IMG/VR virus record: IMGVR_UViG_3300034082_002068 | Span: 1 to 23,278 of that record | Direction: 5' to 3' (one strand) | Origin: a virus | DNA length: 23,278 nucleotides | In this document: piece after piece, positions 5,002 through 19,657 of the stretch | How positions within the stretch are numbered: the first letter of the stretch is position 1 | Layout of the letters: each line of letters starts with the position of its first letter | The notes under the pieces: generated by a model | What the model was told of the DNA's origin: nothing | The model's input: only the letters and a program-made list of their open reading frames with translations | Database searches by the model: none | Program-made: the position numbers and the translations under genes

Positions 5002-6336
5002 ATGAAGTTAAAGAAATATATACAATTCATAAAAGAATCTATTAAAGAAGATATAGAAGAACAATCTATCTGGAAAATATCAGAAGATGAGATTCAAGAT
5101 TATCTAAGAGATTTAGATGATGAAGGATATATTATAGAAGTTGAATTTGGTTTCTGCCAAAAAGTTACTCAACATAACTACAATAAACCCACAACAGAAA
5201 AAGATGTTTTTACCGAAAAAGTTTTAGCAGGTGATTCTATTAGACCAGCTTATTGGATTAGAATATCCGAAAGTGATAGAGTATCTAATGAAGATGTTAG
5301 TGATTCTATTAAATTTGCTTATAGTATAATAAAAGAAAAAGCTGATGCTGATATATCTATACATGATGAGGATGGTGATATTGGTGATATAGAAGGAATT
5401 GAAGTTAAAGGAGGTTTATTCTTTACAGATAATTGGAATTCACCTGAACCAGAATTATTAGAGGCCGATGGTTATATATCACTATTTGTTAAACAAAAAG
5501 AAGTAATTAAATTCACACAAGCTGATTTAGTTGATTATTACGAATGGGAAAGTGGTTGTGAAGTAAAAGGCGATAATATTTATATTGAAGTTGATATAGA
5601 AGATATGGCGGATGTTATGTTATCGAGAAATTCAGATTATAAAGATATTTTAGTAAAAGGAGAAGAATCTATGTATGATAATTACCACGGACACGATTAT
5701 CAACCTGATATACAATCAATGTTTCAATATTCACTAACTAAAGAAAATGAAATTCTTTTAGTTAAATCCATGATTAAAGAAATTGGAGGATTAGAAATTT
5801 TTATATCAGAATTTAAAAATGAAAATTTAGAAGGAAAATCAGAAGAAGAAGTTATTGAATTTTTATTAAAGGAAAGATTCTACGAAACATTAAAAAAATT
5901 ATGTAAAGATTCCGAAATATGTCAAGAAGTAAGACAAAATATTGGAGACTGGGAGATGAACGCACATGTTGATAGAAACTATAAAGAAGTTCTTGATGAA
6001 TTTGATGAAATAGTTGAAAAGGAATTCTCATACACCAAAACAGAAAAAGAAGTTACTAAATATTATACATCAAAAGACACTGAAGGTAATCAAACAAAGA
6101 GAGAATATCAAGTAACAGAAACATTTTATATAATTCAATTTAATAATGATTGGACTGAAAATACAGATGCAGAATATTTAAAAGGTAGAGACTTAGTAGA
6201 CTTATTCAAAGAATATTGTGGCGAAATGAGTTTTAACTACAAAATAGAACCTCATTTTTCAGATTGGGGAGATGTTGATAAAGTAGCTTTAAATAAAGAT
6301 ATTAATTCAGACCTAAAAAGATACTTACCTAAATAA
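5002..6336 (+). CDS. Large acidic protein with capsid-targeting-like N-terminus
   Basis: This 444-residue protein is rich in Glu and Asp with no family I recognise. Its N-terminus MKLKKYIQFIKES aligns with T4 MKTYQEFIAE (Y-x-x-F-I-x-E), the signal that brings internal proteins into the prohead and is removed by the gp21 protease after the Glu. The remainder looks alpha/beta and globular: a segment with DADISIHDEDGDIGDIEG (about 113-130), a central helical region (about 253-310), and a C-terminal domain starting near residue 340 with KYYTSKDTEGNQTKREY. Acidic charge is common in proteins packaged with DNA or mimicking it. The gene is monocistronic, with a terminator upstream, and ends flush against the convergent Nudix gene. 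Packaging is inference from the N-terminus. Confidence 0.78.
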   Translation: MKLKKYIQFIKESIKEDIEEQSIWKISEDEIQDYLRDLDDEGYIIEVEFGFCQKVTQHNYNKPTTEKDVFTEKVLAGDSIRPAYWIRISESDRVSNEDVSDSIKFAYSIIKEKADADISIHDEDGDIGDIEGIEVKGGLFFTDNWNSPEPELLEADGYISLFVKQKEVIKFTQADLVDYYEWESGCEVKGDNIYIEVDIEDMADVMLSRNSDYKDILVKGEESMYDNYHGHDYQPDIQSMFQYSLTKENEILLVKSMIKEIGGLEIFISEFKNENLEGKSEEEVIEFLLKERFYETLKKLCKDSEICQEVRQNIGDWEMNAHVDRNYKEVLDEFDEIVEKEFSYTKTEKEVTKYYTSKDTEGNQTKREYQVTETFYIIQFNNDWTENTDAEYLKGRDLVDLFKEYCGEMSFNYKIEPHFSDWGDVDKVALNKDINSDLKRYLPK

Positions 6337-17009: not shown

Positions 17010-17882
17010 ATGAAAAAATTATCCTCTGGAGTTGGTCAAACACCACTTATAAAAATCTCTGAAAGAATCTTCGCAAAATTTGAAGGACAAAATCCAAGCG
17101 GTTCAATAAAAGACAGAATGGCTTCTTATATAATAAATGACGCCGAGAAGAATAATCTTATTAAAAAAGGTGATACAATTATTGAAGCAACATCTGGTAA
17201 CTCAGGAATTGCTTTTGCTTTCTTAGCAGCAGAAAGAGGTTATAAATGTATTATTGTTATGCCTTCTAATATGAGCGAAGAAAGAAAACAAATGTTACGT
17301 TTATATGGTGCTAAACTTATTGAAGTCCCAGATGGTAAATTTGATGACGCTATTGCTTTAAGAAATAAAATGGCTTATGAAAATGGTTACTTTAACCCTA
17401 ATCAGTTTCATAACCCACTAAACATAGAAGCACATGAAAAAGGAACTGCTGTTGAGATTTTACATCAGTGTAAAGGTAGAATTGCAGCCTTTGTTGATGG
17501 AACAGGAACCGGTGGAACTCTTATGGGAACTTCTCGTGTTTTAAAGATGTATAATCATTTAATGAAAGTTGTAGCAGTTGAACCAGCAGAATCACCAGTT
17601 ATGTCAGGTGGTCAAGCAGGACTCCACGGTATTCAAGGAATTGGTGATGGTTCTAAATTCTTAGTTGATTTGAAAGAAGTTGATGATATTATGATTATAT
17701 CAACTGAAGAAGCTAAAGAAAGAGCTAGAAGATTAGCTAAAGAACAAGGTCTATTTGTAGGAATTAGTTCAGGTGCTAATATTTTAGCATCAGAAAGATT
17801 GTTAGAAAAATACCCAGAAATGGAAGGTAATATTATAACTATATTGTGTGATAGAGGTGAAAGATATCTTTCTTGTTTCTAA
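17010..17882 (+). CDS. cysK: Cysteine synthase (PLP-dependent)
   Basis: This 290-residue protein is a full-length O-acetylserine sulfhydrylase/CysK-CysM-type enzyme. It carries the PLP lysine in NPSGSIKDR (Lys34), the phosphate and substrate loop TSGNSG (61-66), GTGTGGT (164-170) binding the PLP phosphate, GISSGAN (251-257, the pyridine-contacting Ser) and the C-terminal CDRGERYLS. The reaction makes L-cysteine from O-acetylserine (or O-phosphoserine) and sulphide. Such a gene is an auxiliary metabolic gene in a phage, giving cysteine, glutathione-type thiols or sulphide control during infection. No catalytic residue is missing. It is about 15-30 residues shorter than typical CysK, mainly at the N-terminus. 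TAGATATATAAAAC (16978-16991) is a likely promoter. No SD is seen. Confidence 0.93.
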   Translation: MKKLSSGVGQTPLIKISERIFAKFEGQNPSGSIKDRMASYIINDAEKNNLIKKGDTIIEATSGNSGIAFAFLAAERGYKCIIVMPSNMSEERKQMLRLYGAKLIEVPDGKFDDAIALRNKMAYENGYFNPNQFHNPLNIEAHEKGTAVEILHQCKGRIAAFVDGTGTGGTLMGTSRVLKMYNHLMKVVAVEPAESPVMSGGQAGLHGIQGIGDGSKFLVDLKEVDDIMIISTEEAKERARRLAKEQGLFVGISSGANILASERLLEKYPEMEGNIITILCDRGERYLSCF

Positions 17883-18057: not shown

Positions 18058-18726
18058 ATGAAGAAATTAAAAACATATGAAAACTTCATTAATGAAGAAA
18101 TAGATTTCAGAAGAGGAATCGCAGCAGCTGGATTAATAGGTGCTCTTGCTGCTTCACCAGTAGCAGCTCAAACTAAAACACCAACTTCTATGTCAGTTCA
18201 ATCTGAACAAGGAATTGATGTTTATAAGAATCAAATTGAAGAAATATCTACAATTAGAAAAGAAAAATCTAAAGATGTGAAACTTTCAATAATATTAGAT
18301 GAAATTAAATCTAATATCAATAGTAAAGATTCTGCTAAATTCATTGAATTATACACTAAATTAGCTTCTCATATTGAATCAGAATATGGTTACAAAATCC
18401 CTGAACAAAAAGTTGAAGAACTAACTGAAGCTGGTATTGCAGGTATGGTTAAAAATATGACTATATTTGAAATAATGGGTTGGTTAGGATCAATCTGTTT
18501 AGCAATCTGTGGTATTCCACAAGCTTGGCAATCTTATAAAGATAAACACTCTGATGGTATATCTTGGGGATTTGTTCTTCTTTGGGCATTCGGTGAAGTA
18601 TTCGCACTAGCTTATGTTTATGATAAATTAGACCTGCCATTACTCCTAAATTACGCAACTAACATCCTAATCTTAGGTGTTATTCTATACTATAAAGTAA
18701 AGCCACAAAATAAATTAGAATTATGA
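18058..18726 (+). CDS. SemiSWEET/PQ-loop membrane protein with capsid-targeting-like N-terminus
   Basis: This 222-residue protein has three parts. Residues 1-13, MKKLKTYENFINE, match the T4 capsid-targeting peptide. Residues 18-38 (RRG, then a hydrophobic Ala/Gly/Leu run ending SPVAAQ) resemble a signal peptide with a possible AxA-type cut. Residues 55-130 are soluble and helical. Residues 136-212 are a single PQ-loop unit of three membrane helices (about 136-156, 169-187, 193-212) with the diagnostic CGIPQAWQSYKDKHSDGISW (151-170; Pro154-Gln155). One such unit is a SemiSWEET half-transporter, which dimerises to carry sugars or other small solutes. Virus-borne PQ-loop proteins are unusual. 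The stop overlaps the next start as ATGA. Packaging and transport are inferred. Confidence 0.82.
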   Translation: MKKLKTYENFINEEIDFRRGIAAAGLIGALAASPVAAQTKTPTSMSVQSEQGIDVYKNQIEEISTIRKEKSKDVKLSIILDEIKSNINSKDSAKFIELYTKLASHIESEYGYKIPEQKVEELTEAGIAGMVKNMTIFEIMGWLGSICLAICGIPQAWQSYKDKHSDGISWGFVLLWAFGEVFALAYVYDKLDLPLLLNYATNILILGVILYYKVKPQNKLEL

Positions 18727-19094
18727 TAAAGAAATACAATCAATTTGTAAATGAGAATAATCAAGTTCCTGGACCTAACACACCAGGATCTCTTAAATTA
18801 GATATTAATGAAACTGAAGCTGAATTATTTTTAAATGAACCTGAATTAGGTGAGTTAATTGCTGATCAAAAAGTTTCTTTAAGTCCGCCACACTTATGGT
18901 GTGAAAACAAAGAAGATACTATTAATGTTCTAAGGAATTATAATTTTAAAATACCCACTGATGTTAAAGAATCGGTTGATTCTAAAGGAAAAGAAGAACT
19001 TGAAGAGTTATCTAAGAGAATCAAAGAACTTCAAAAAGAATATGAAAAGAAAGCCAAAGAACTTGGTGTTGAAGCTAAAAAAAAACATAAATAA
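18723..19094 (+). CDS. Coiled-coil protein with capsid-targeting-like N-terminus
   Basis: This 123-residue protein starts MIKKYNQFVNENNQ (Y-x-x-F-V-x-E). The middle is acidic (ETEAELFLNEPELGEL) and the end is a Lys/Glu coiled coil (about 85-120, EELSKRIKELQKEYEKKAKE). No family. The first 36 bases are almost the same as those of the next gene, and half of the differences are silent, so the peptide itself seems to be under selection. The ATG overlaps the upstream stop (ATGA), and only 2 nt separate it from the next gene. It is a candidate packaged protein; the coiled coil could hold it in the core scaffold. Confidence 0.75.
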   Translation: MIKKYNQFVNENNQVPGPNTPGSLKLDINETEAELFLNEPELGELIADQKVSLSPPHLWCENKEDTINVLRNYNFKIPTDVKESVDSKGKEELEELSKRIKELQKEYEKKAKELGVEAKKKHK

Positions 19095-19096
19095 TT

Positions 19097-19657
19097 ATGA
19101 TAAAGAAATATAACCAATTTATAAAAGAAAATAGAGAAGATTCTATTACCGTACCAGGATTCACAAAAGAAGAATTGAATAAAATTAAAGAAACAGCTAT
19201 GCGTTTGTTATCACCAGGTTTTCATGAAGATTATGAGGTTGGTGCATATCTTAGTTCTGTTGCCAATGATGATCCTAAAATTGAAAAATTATTAGTTGAA
19301 TGGTTAAAATCACAAGGTGCAAATTTTTATCAACCTGAATACCGTGATTCTATTAGTGAAAAAGACGAGTATAAAGATTTAAGTATGCATAATCCATACT
19401 ATGGTGATGATAAAGAAGATTTAAAACCTATTGGTGTTGATAATCTTGAATCACAAGGAACTAATGGATTAGTTTCAATATTTAGTCCATTAGAAAGTGA
19501 TATGGTAGAGGGTTGGAATAATGATGAAAAAGTTAAAAAATTCATTGAAGAAGGAAGATTATTCCTTAATGAACTTAGTTATGATGAATGGTCAATATAC
19601 GGTATTGAAGGTGACGATGAAGTTAAGAACTATGTAATGAAAAATTATTCTTGGTAA
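19097..19657 (+). CDS. Acidic protein with capsid-targeting-like N-terminus
   Basis: This 186-residue protein starts MIKKYNQFIKENRED (Y-x-x-F-I-x-E), close to the previous gene's start. After the peptide the sequence is unlike its neighbour: a helical section (TKEELNKIKETAMRLL, EKLLVEWLKSQG), then an Asp/Glu/Tyr-rich centre (ISEKDEYKDLSMHNPYYGDD) and an acidic end (YDEWSIYGIEGDDEVKNY). I recognise no domain. Expression probably depends on the upstream gene, as no promoter-like box fits in the 2-nt gap. Acidic, DNA-mimic-like proteins can block host nucleases; that is only a possibility here. Confidence 0.75.
   Translation: MIKKYNQFIKENREDSITVPGFTKEELNKIKETAMRLLSPGFHEDYEVGAYLSSVANDDPKIEKLLVEWLKSQGANFYQPEYRDSISEKDEYKDLSMHNPYYGDDKEDLKPIGVDNLESQGTNGLVSIFSPLESDMVEGWNNDEKVKKFIEEGRLFLNELSYDEWSIYGIEGDDEVKNYVMKNYSW

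Follow-up and report, generated by a model that had tools for sequence, protein, structure and literature searches.

The internal proteins IPII and IPIII of phage T4 begin with the sequence MKTYQEFIAE. In this capsid-targeting tag, positions 4 and 7 are important for targeting, and positions 8 and 10 for processing (PMC9026906). SemiSWEETs are a second point of reference; in the Escherichia coli protein the pocket residues are Trp50 and Asn66 (PMC4309421). Features of both systems meet in a single open reading frame (ORF) at positions 18058-18726 (+) of a 23,278-nucleotide viral sequence, IMG/VR record IMGVR_UViG_3300034082_002068, referred to here as the window. Its product carries a T4-like tag, a signal-peptide-like stretch, a linker and a C-terminal PQ-loop domain. 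We favour, with a probability of roughly 0.42, the explanation that Mahaphage-like huge phages of Bacteroidota carry it as an accessory PQ-loop membrane protein with a double N-terminal address, which would be packed into the capsid, freed of its tag, injected and exported as a small-solute carrier.

Anatomy of the PQ-loop ORF

The ORF begins with ATG and its translation from the window contains no internal stops. Its parts, with the evidence for each, are as follows:

18058-18726 (+): PQ-loop ORF of 222 amino acids, with tag, signal-like stretch, linker and PQ-loop domain (full-length homologues)
18058-18096 (+): residues 1-13, T4-type capsid-targeting-like tag, MKKLKTYENFINE (match to T4 IPII/IPIII, enrichment)
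18100-18168 (+): residues 15-37, signal-peptide-like stretch (ending shared among tagged family members)
18169-18456 (+): residues 38-133, helical linker, predicted to be periplasmic (AlphaFold helices, loop charges)
18463-18699 (+): residues 136-214, three-helix PQ-loop domain (PF04193, PDB profile match, Foldseek)

The original prediction, made from the sequence alone, had proposed a tag at residues 1-13, a signal-like stretch behind it and three membrane helices holding a PQ motif, and all three elements are borne out by the results below. Our confidence in this anatomy is high. Comparison with the closest relative shows purifying selection on the ORF: the ratio of nonsynonymous to synonymous substitution rates is lowest in the PQ domain (0.13), where selection is thus strongest, followed by the linker (0.26) and the signal stretch (0.46). 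The linker, of about 95 amino acids, is modelled by AlphaFold with helices at residues 51-70, 74-86 and 92-110. Matches of linker residues 44-125 to PdxJ (0.0026) and replication factor C (0.001) are isolated, weak and to unrelated families, and are attributed to chance in a low-complexity helical region.

A PQ-loop domain with a SemiSWEET fold

The PF04193 PQ-loop family matches the whole protein with an expectation value (E) of 9.6e-13 and the domain alone with 1.5e-13; the score of 48.1 bits, above the Pfam gathering cutoff of 22, places the protein in the PQ-loop superfamily. AlphaFold models helices confidently at residues 136-162, 170-188 and 193-214, giving the PQ domain a predicted local distance difference test score of 85 and a predicted template modelling (TM) score of 0.72. 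The PQ motif, CGIPQAW, occupies residues 151-157 in the first helix, and P154-Q155 is invariant in 14/14 aligned rows. The protein also matches phrog_25992 (2e-4). Searched against the PDB, a profile built from eight relatives retrieves SemiSWEET structures, with 4qnc as the best match (2.5e-11). Likewise, the top 12 Foldseek matches in the PDB are all SemiSWEETs, with probabilities of 0.69-1.00 and modest E values (0.02-1.1); TM scores by target length span 0.55-0.71 over these 12 and 0.60-0.71 for the best ones. The three-helix SWEET fold implied by the original prediction is thus recovered by structure prediction and fold search alike.

The window protein therefore shares with the SemiSWEETs of Leptospira (4qnc) and E. 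coli (4x5m) a three-helix unit, a PQ motif in helix 1, and fold and profile matches, but differs from them in its pocket and in its added tag, signal stretch and linker. It is not among the matches of the MtN3/SWEET model PF03083, which three of eight family members match (best E 0.021). E. coli Trp50 aligns with A183 and Asn66 with Y199; the adjoining N198, one residue off the Asn66 position, is invariant. In a tree of 17 rows, a 100/100 split sets two SemiSWEETs apart from the phage and cyanobacterial sequences, and the branching inside is poorly resolved. The proposed identity as a SemiSWEET/PQ-loop half-transporter consequently stands for a PQ-loop unit with the SemiSWEET fold and not for a sugar-moving SemiSWEET. 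The protein is a SemiSWEET relative, not a proven SemiSWEET.

The capsid-targeting-like tag

The tag of the window protein holds a Y-x-x-F-I-x-E core in which all four T4 targeting and processing residues have counterparts at T4 spacing (Y7/Y4, F10/F7, I11/I8 and E13/E10). This core is enriched at N-termini throughout the group: it opens 4 of the 37 ORFs in the window (0.1 expected), 22 of 470 in a 385-kb relative, L001 (1.8 expected), and 28 of 984 in the huge phage LR756502 (2.9 expected). A broader form of the tag is found at 154 of the 984 LR756502 ORF starts, as opposed to 4 of 3157 internal methionines, and at 52 of the 470 ORFs of L001. Among the tagged ORFs of LR756502.1 (loci L009-L021) are runs of small, alike genes with a ‘DILLDLxDDG’-like motif.

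The likeness to T4 IPII and IPIII extends to a hydrophobic-x-E cut motif and to a phage type with a gp21-type protease and a gp23-type capsid. In contrast to the soluble T4 cargo, the window protein is a multi-pass membrane protein in which a putative export signal follows the tag.

The 23-kb window record itself holds neither a head protease nor a gp23-type capsid gene; in four relatives, a gp23-type capsid gene is adjoined by an ORF fusing a gp21-type protease to a scaffold. The fusion matches the head maturation protease family phrog_207 (4.8e-28), and the annotation of Tenacibaculum phage PTm1 shows this protease/capsid pair in the same order. In L036:1447-3360 and its relatives L038 and L040, a single ORF joins the head protease to a long scaffold-like portion, an arrangement also annotated in PTm1. 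In the window protein, the bond after E13 (INE|E) is a candidate cut site for such a protease. An apparent correspondence between the gp23 cut site and an invariant INE in the capsid proteins of the relatives was not placed so by MAFFT and is a hint only. Counts of hydrophobic-x-E and of small P1′ residues were not taken as independent proof of cutting, since the motif already contains these features.

The signal stretch and its recurrence behind other tags

Residues 20-37 form an uncharged hydrophobic run ending in PVAA|Q. By sequence rule, this combines the hydrophobic core and signal peptidase site of a Sec signal peptide, with a candidate signal peptidase I cut at A37|Q38. A small residue (alanine or serine) before glutamine ends the stretch in 5/6 tagged family members, LR756502 having LIA|N. 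The stretch shares the grammar of other putatively secreted proteins of these phages, in which AxA|Q occurs in 15/40 signal-like proteins and a lipobox in 6/40, compared with 3.2% and 0.45% of random background stretches. Loop charges favour an N-out/C-in orientation, which fits a cleavable signal before a long periplasmic N-terminal part; the membrane topology that the original prediction suggested examining is consistent with export.

The combination of tag and signal stretch, often with NEE between them, recurs in about four other protein families. For instance, a conserved family of 120-128 amino acids, present in two huge phages (L062:19307-19690 (-) and L016:45899-46258 (-)), has the tag, NEE and signal ends KMQA|Q and KVQA|Q. 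A tagged protein of 152 amino acids (L020:30926-31381 (+)) has a hydrophobic stretch ending in the lipobox LATAC, making it a candidate packaged lipoprotein. At L006 5869, a tagged, signal-like protein bears an OmpA domain (PF00691, 1.3e-7), and L010 45993 and L019 44852 form a paralogue pair with tag and signal stretch. In LR756502, an uncharged hydrophobic stretch lies near the tag in 9/154 tagged ORFs, against 1/131 in a control region further in (p = 0.019). The idea of delivery followed by export gains weight from this pairing of tag and signal in unrelated families of the same phages, a lipobox or an OmpA domain being present in some of them.

Distribution among phages

The whole plan of tag, hydrophobic stretch, linker and PQ-loop is kept in five relatives (L001, L002, L004, L005 and L006). 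The closest is L001 (91%), and L002 is LR756502, a 642-kb huge phage of the Mahaphage clade (56%). The combination that had been singled out as odd is therefore not peculiar to the window, as long-form homologues retain both the N-terminal tag and the hydrophobic stretch. Capsid-protein matches group these phages with LR745206, LR756501, LR756502 and LR756504, and the hosts of the capsid relatives are Bacteroidota. Within the study from which these genomes come, those of >634 kb form part of the Mahaphage clade, with Bacteroidetes as predicted hosts (PMC7162821). Among annotated phage records, the full-length gene occurs in LR756502 only, and is therefore regarded as accessory. There it is located away from the RecA-type neighbourhood seen in the window, so the plan is independent of neighbouring genes.

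A sixth relative, L027, departs from this plan at its N-terminus, where it has another motif, and its signal stretch closes with the lipobox VVSC. In this gene (L027:7623-8270 (+)), the motif MQSLNEEIVRIKKLMNINE replaces the tag ahead of the lipobox signal and PQ-loop, and a tail-sheath-like ORF adjoins it. The motif MQSLNEEIVRIKKLMNINE may be the equivalent tag of another phage group.

Seven other phage loci (L007, L008, L028-L031 and L035) encode the PF04193/PHROG 25992 domain as a stand-alone gene. They share the domain with the window protein but differ in their size of 82-98 amino acids and in having no tag, signal or linker, and they sit in phages unrelated to the tagged group. The PQ-loop domain as such thus occurs widely in phages; the form that is tagged and looks exported is that of a group of huge phages. 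A scan of genome contigs yielded one cellular relative only, in Synechocystis. Phage PQ-loop proteins that are tagged or exported were not found described in the literature searched, which included few subscription papers.

Proposed packaging and export, and alternative explanations

From these computed features we infer a route in which the T4-type tag would bind the prohead core and bring the PQ-loop protein into the capsid, where a gp21-like head protease would cut INE|E and leave the signal peptide at the front of the chain. Once injected together with the DNA, this chain would be exported by the Sec machinery of the next host and cut by signal peptidase I. The linker would end up in the periplasm, and the three helices would insert N-out/C-in into the host inner membrane as a dimer passing a small polar solute. 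This sequential route, capsid first and export after delivery, is the simplest account using both addresses, and our confidence in it is no more than moderate.

Several points weigh against this explanation. Roughly 16% of the ORFs in LR756502 bear the tag, some of them in runs of small genes resembling one another. This is a large number for proteins packed into a capsid and far exceeds the handful of internal proteins in T4. Just nine of the tagged LR756502 ORFs have a nearby hydrophobic stretch, some not signal-like. Signal-peptide assignments come from sequence rules and not from a trained predictor, AlphaFold confidence is low in the N-terminal part, and virion proteomics for these phages was not found. 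A membrane protein within a DNA-filled head also needs a means of staying soluble. Finally, before it could be packaged, the PQ-loop protein might be drawn by its signal to the membrane of the cell that makes it.

There is a serious rival, which we consider less probable: the protein is made and exported in the infected cell without being packaged, the tag being a long n-region, and acts in the inner membrane, for example in solute movement or in an envelope change against superinfection. A basic n-region of 17 residues is compatible with Sec export, and the untagged stand-alone genes of many phages suggest that the domain is useful unpackaged. Moreover, an influence on superinfection has been proposed for predicted membrane and surface proteins of huge phages (PMC7162821). 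A mere n-region is argued against by the tag itself, which preserves the residues that matter in T4 for targeting and for processing and starts many signal-less ORFs in the same genomes. The other signal-like proteins of these phages open directly with a short basic n-region. The hydrophobic stretch directly behind the tag in several families could instead point to a membrane tether for head assembly, in which a cytoplasmic tag binds the prohead core, the stretch and PQ-loop serve as anchor, and proheads grow attached to the inner membrane through tagged envelope proteins. This is improbable, as signal peptidase or lipoprotein-peptidase sites after the stretch would sever the tag from its anchor, and the OmpA domain points to a periplasmic job. 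Least probable is a true SemiSWEET sugar carrier feeding or draining the infected cell; the fold and profile matches and the COG4095 annotation of a close stand-alone phage protein agree with it, yet the PF03083 result, the displaced pocket residues (despite the invariant N198) and the poorly resolved tree that splits the phage group from two SemiSWEETs argue otherwise.

More tentative than the favoured explanation is its extension to a class of proteins. In this proposal, the double-address N-terminus is a device of huge Bacteroidota phages: the head protease would remove the tag and expose a Sec or lipoprotein signal, so that envelope proteins injected ready-made could install themselves in the inner membrane and periplasm of the next host as infection begins. 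Those internal proteins of T4 that have been examined to date act, to our knowledge, within the cell. If true, a class of packaged proteins with their own export signal would be a new phage route to remodel the host envelope from the earliest moments, and the order of tag, NEE and signal peptide would provide a sequence rule by which the largest known phages could be searched for further members. As its domain, fold and expected topology are known, the PQ-loop protein makes a clean test case.

Neighbouring genes

Other tagged ORFs of the window include the following:

5002-6336 (+): ORF of 444 amino acids, tagged MKLKKYIQFIKE
18723-19094 (+): ORF of 123 amino acids, tagged MIKKYNQFVNE, overlapping the end of the PQ-loop ORF by 4 bases
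19097-19657 (+): ORF of 186 amino acids, tagged MIKKYNQFIKE

Just upstream of the PQ-loop ORF, the ORF at 17010-17882 (+) encodes a cysteine-synthase-type pyridoxal-phosphate enzyme (PF00291, 2e-70). An operon link between the two genes was considered; the upstream gene is kept in L001, L004, L005 and L006, but no counterpart was found in LR756502, so the cysteine-synthase-like gene is not a fixed partner.
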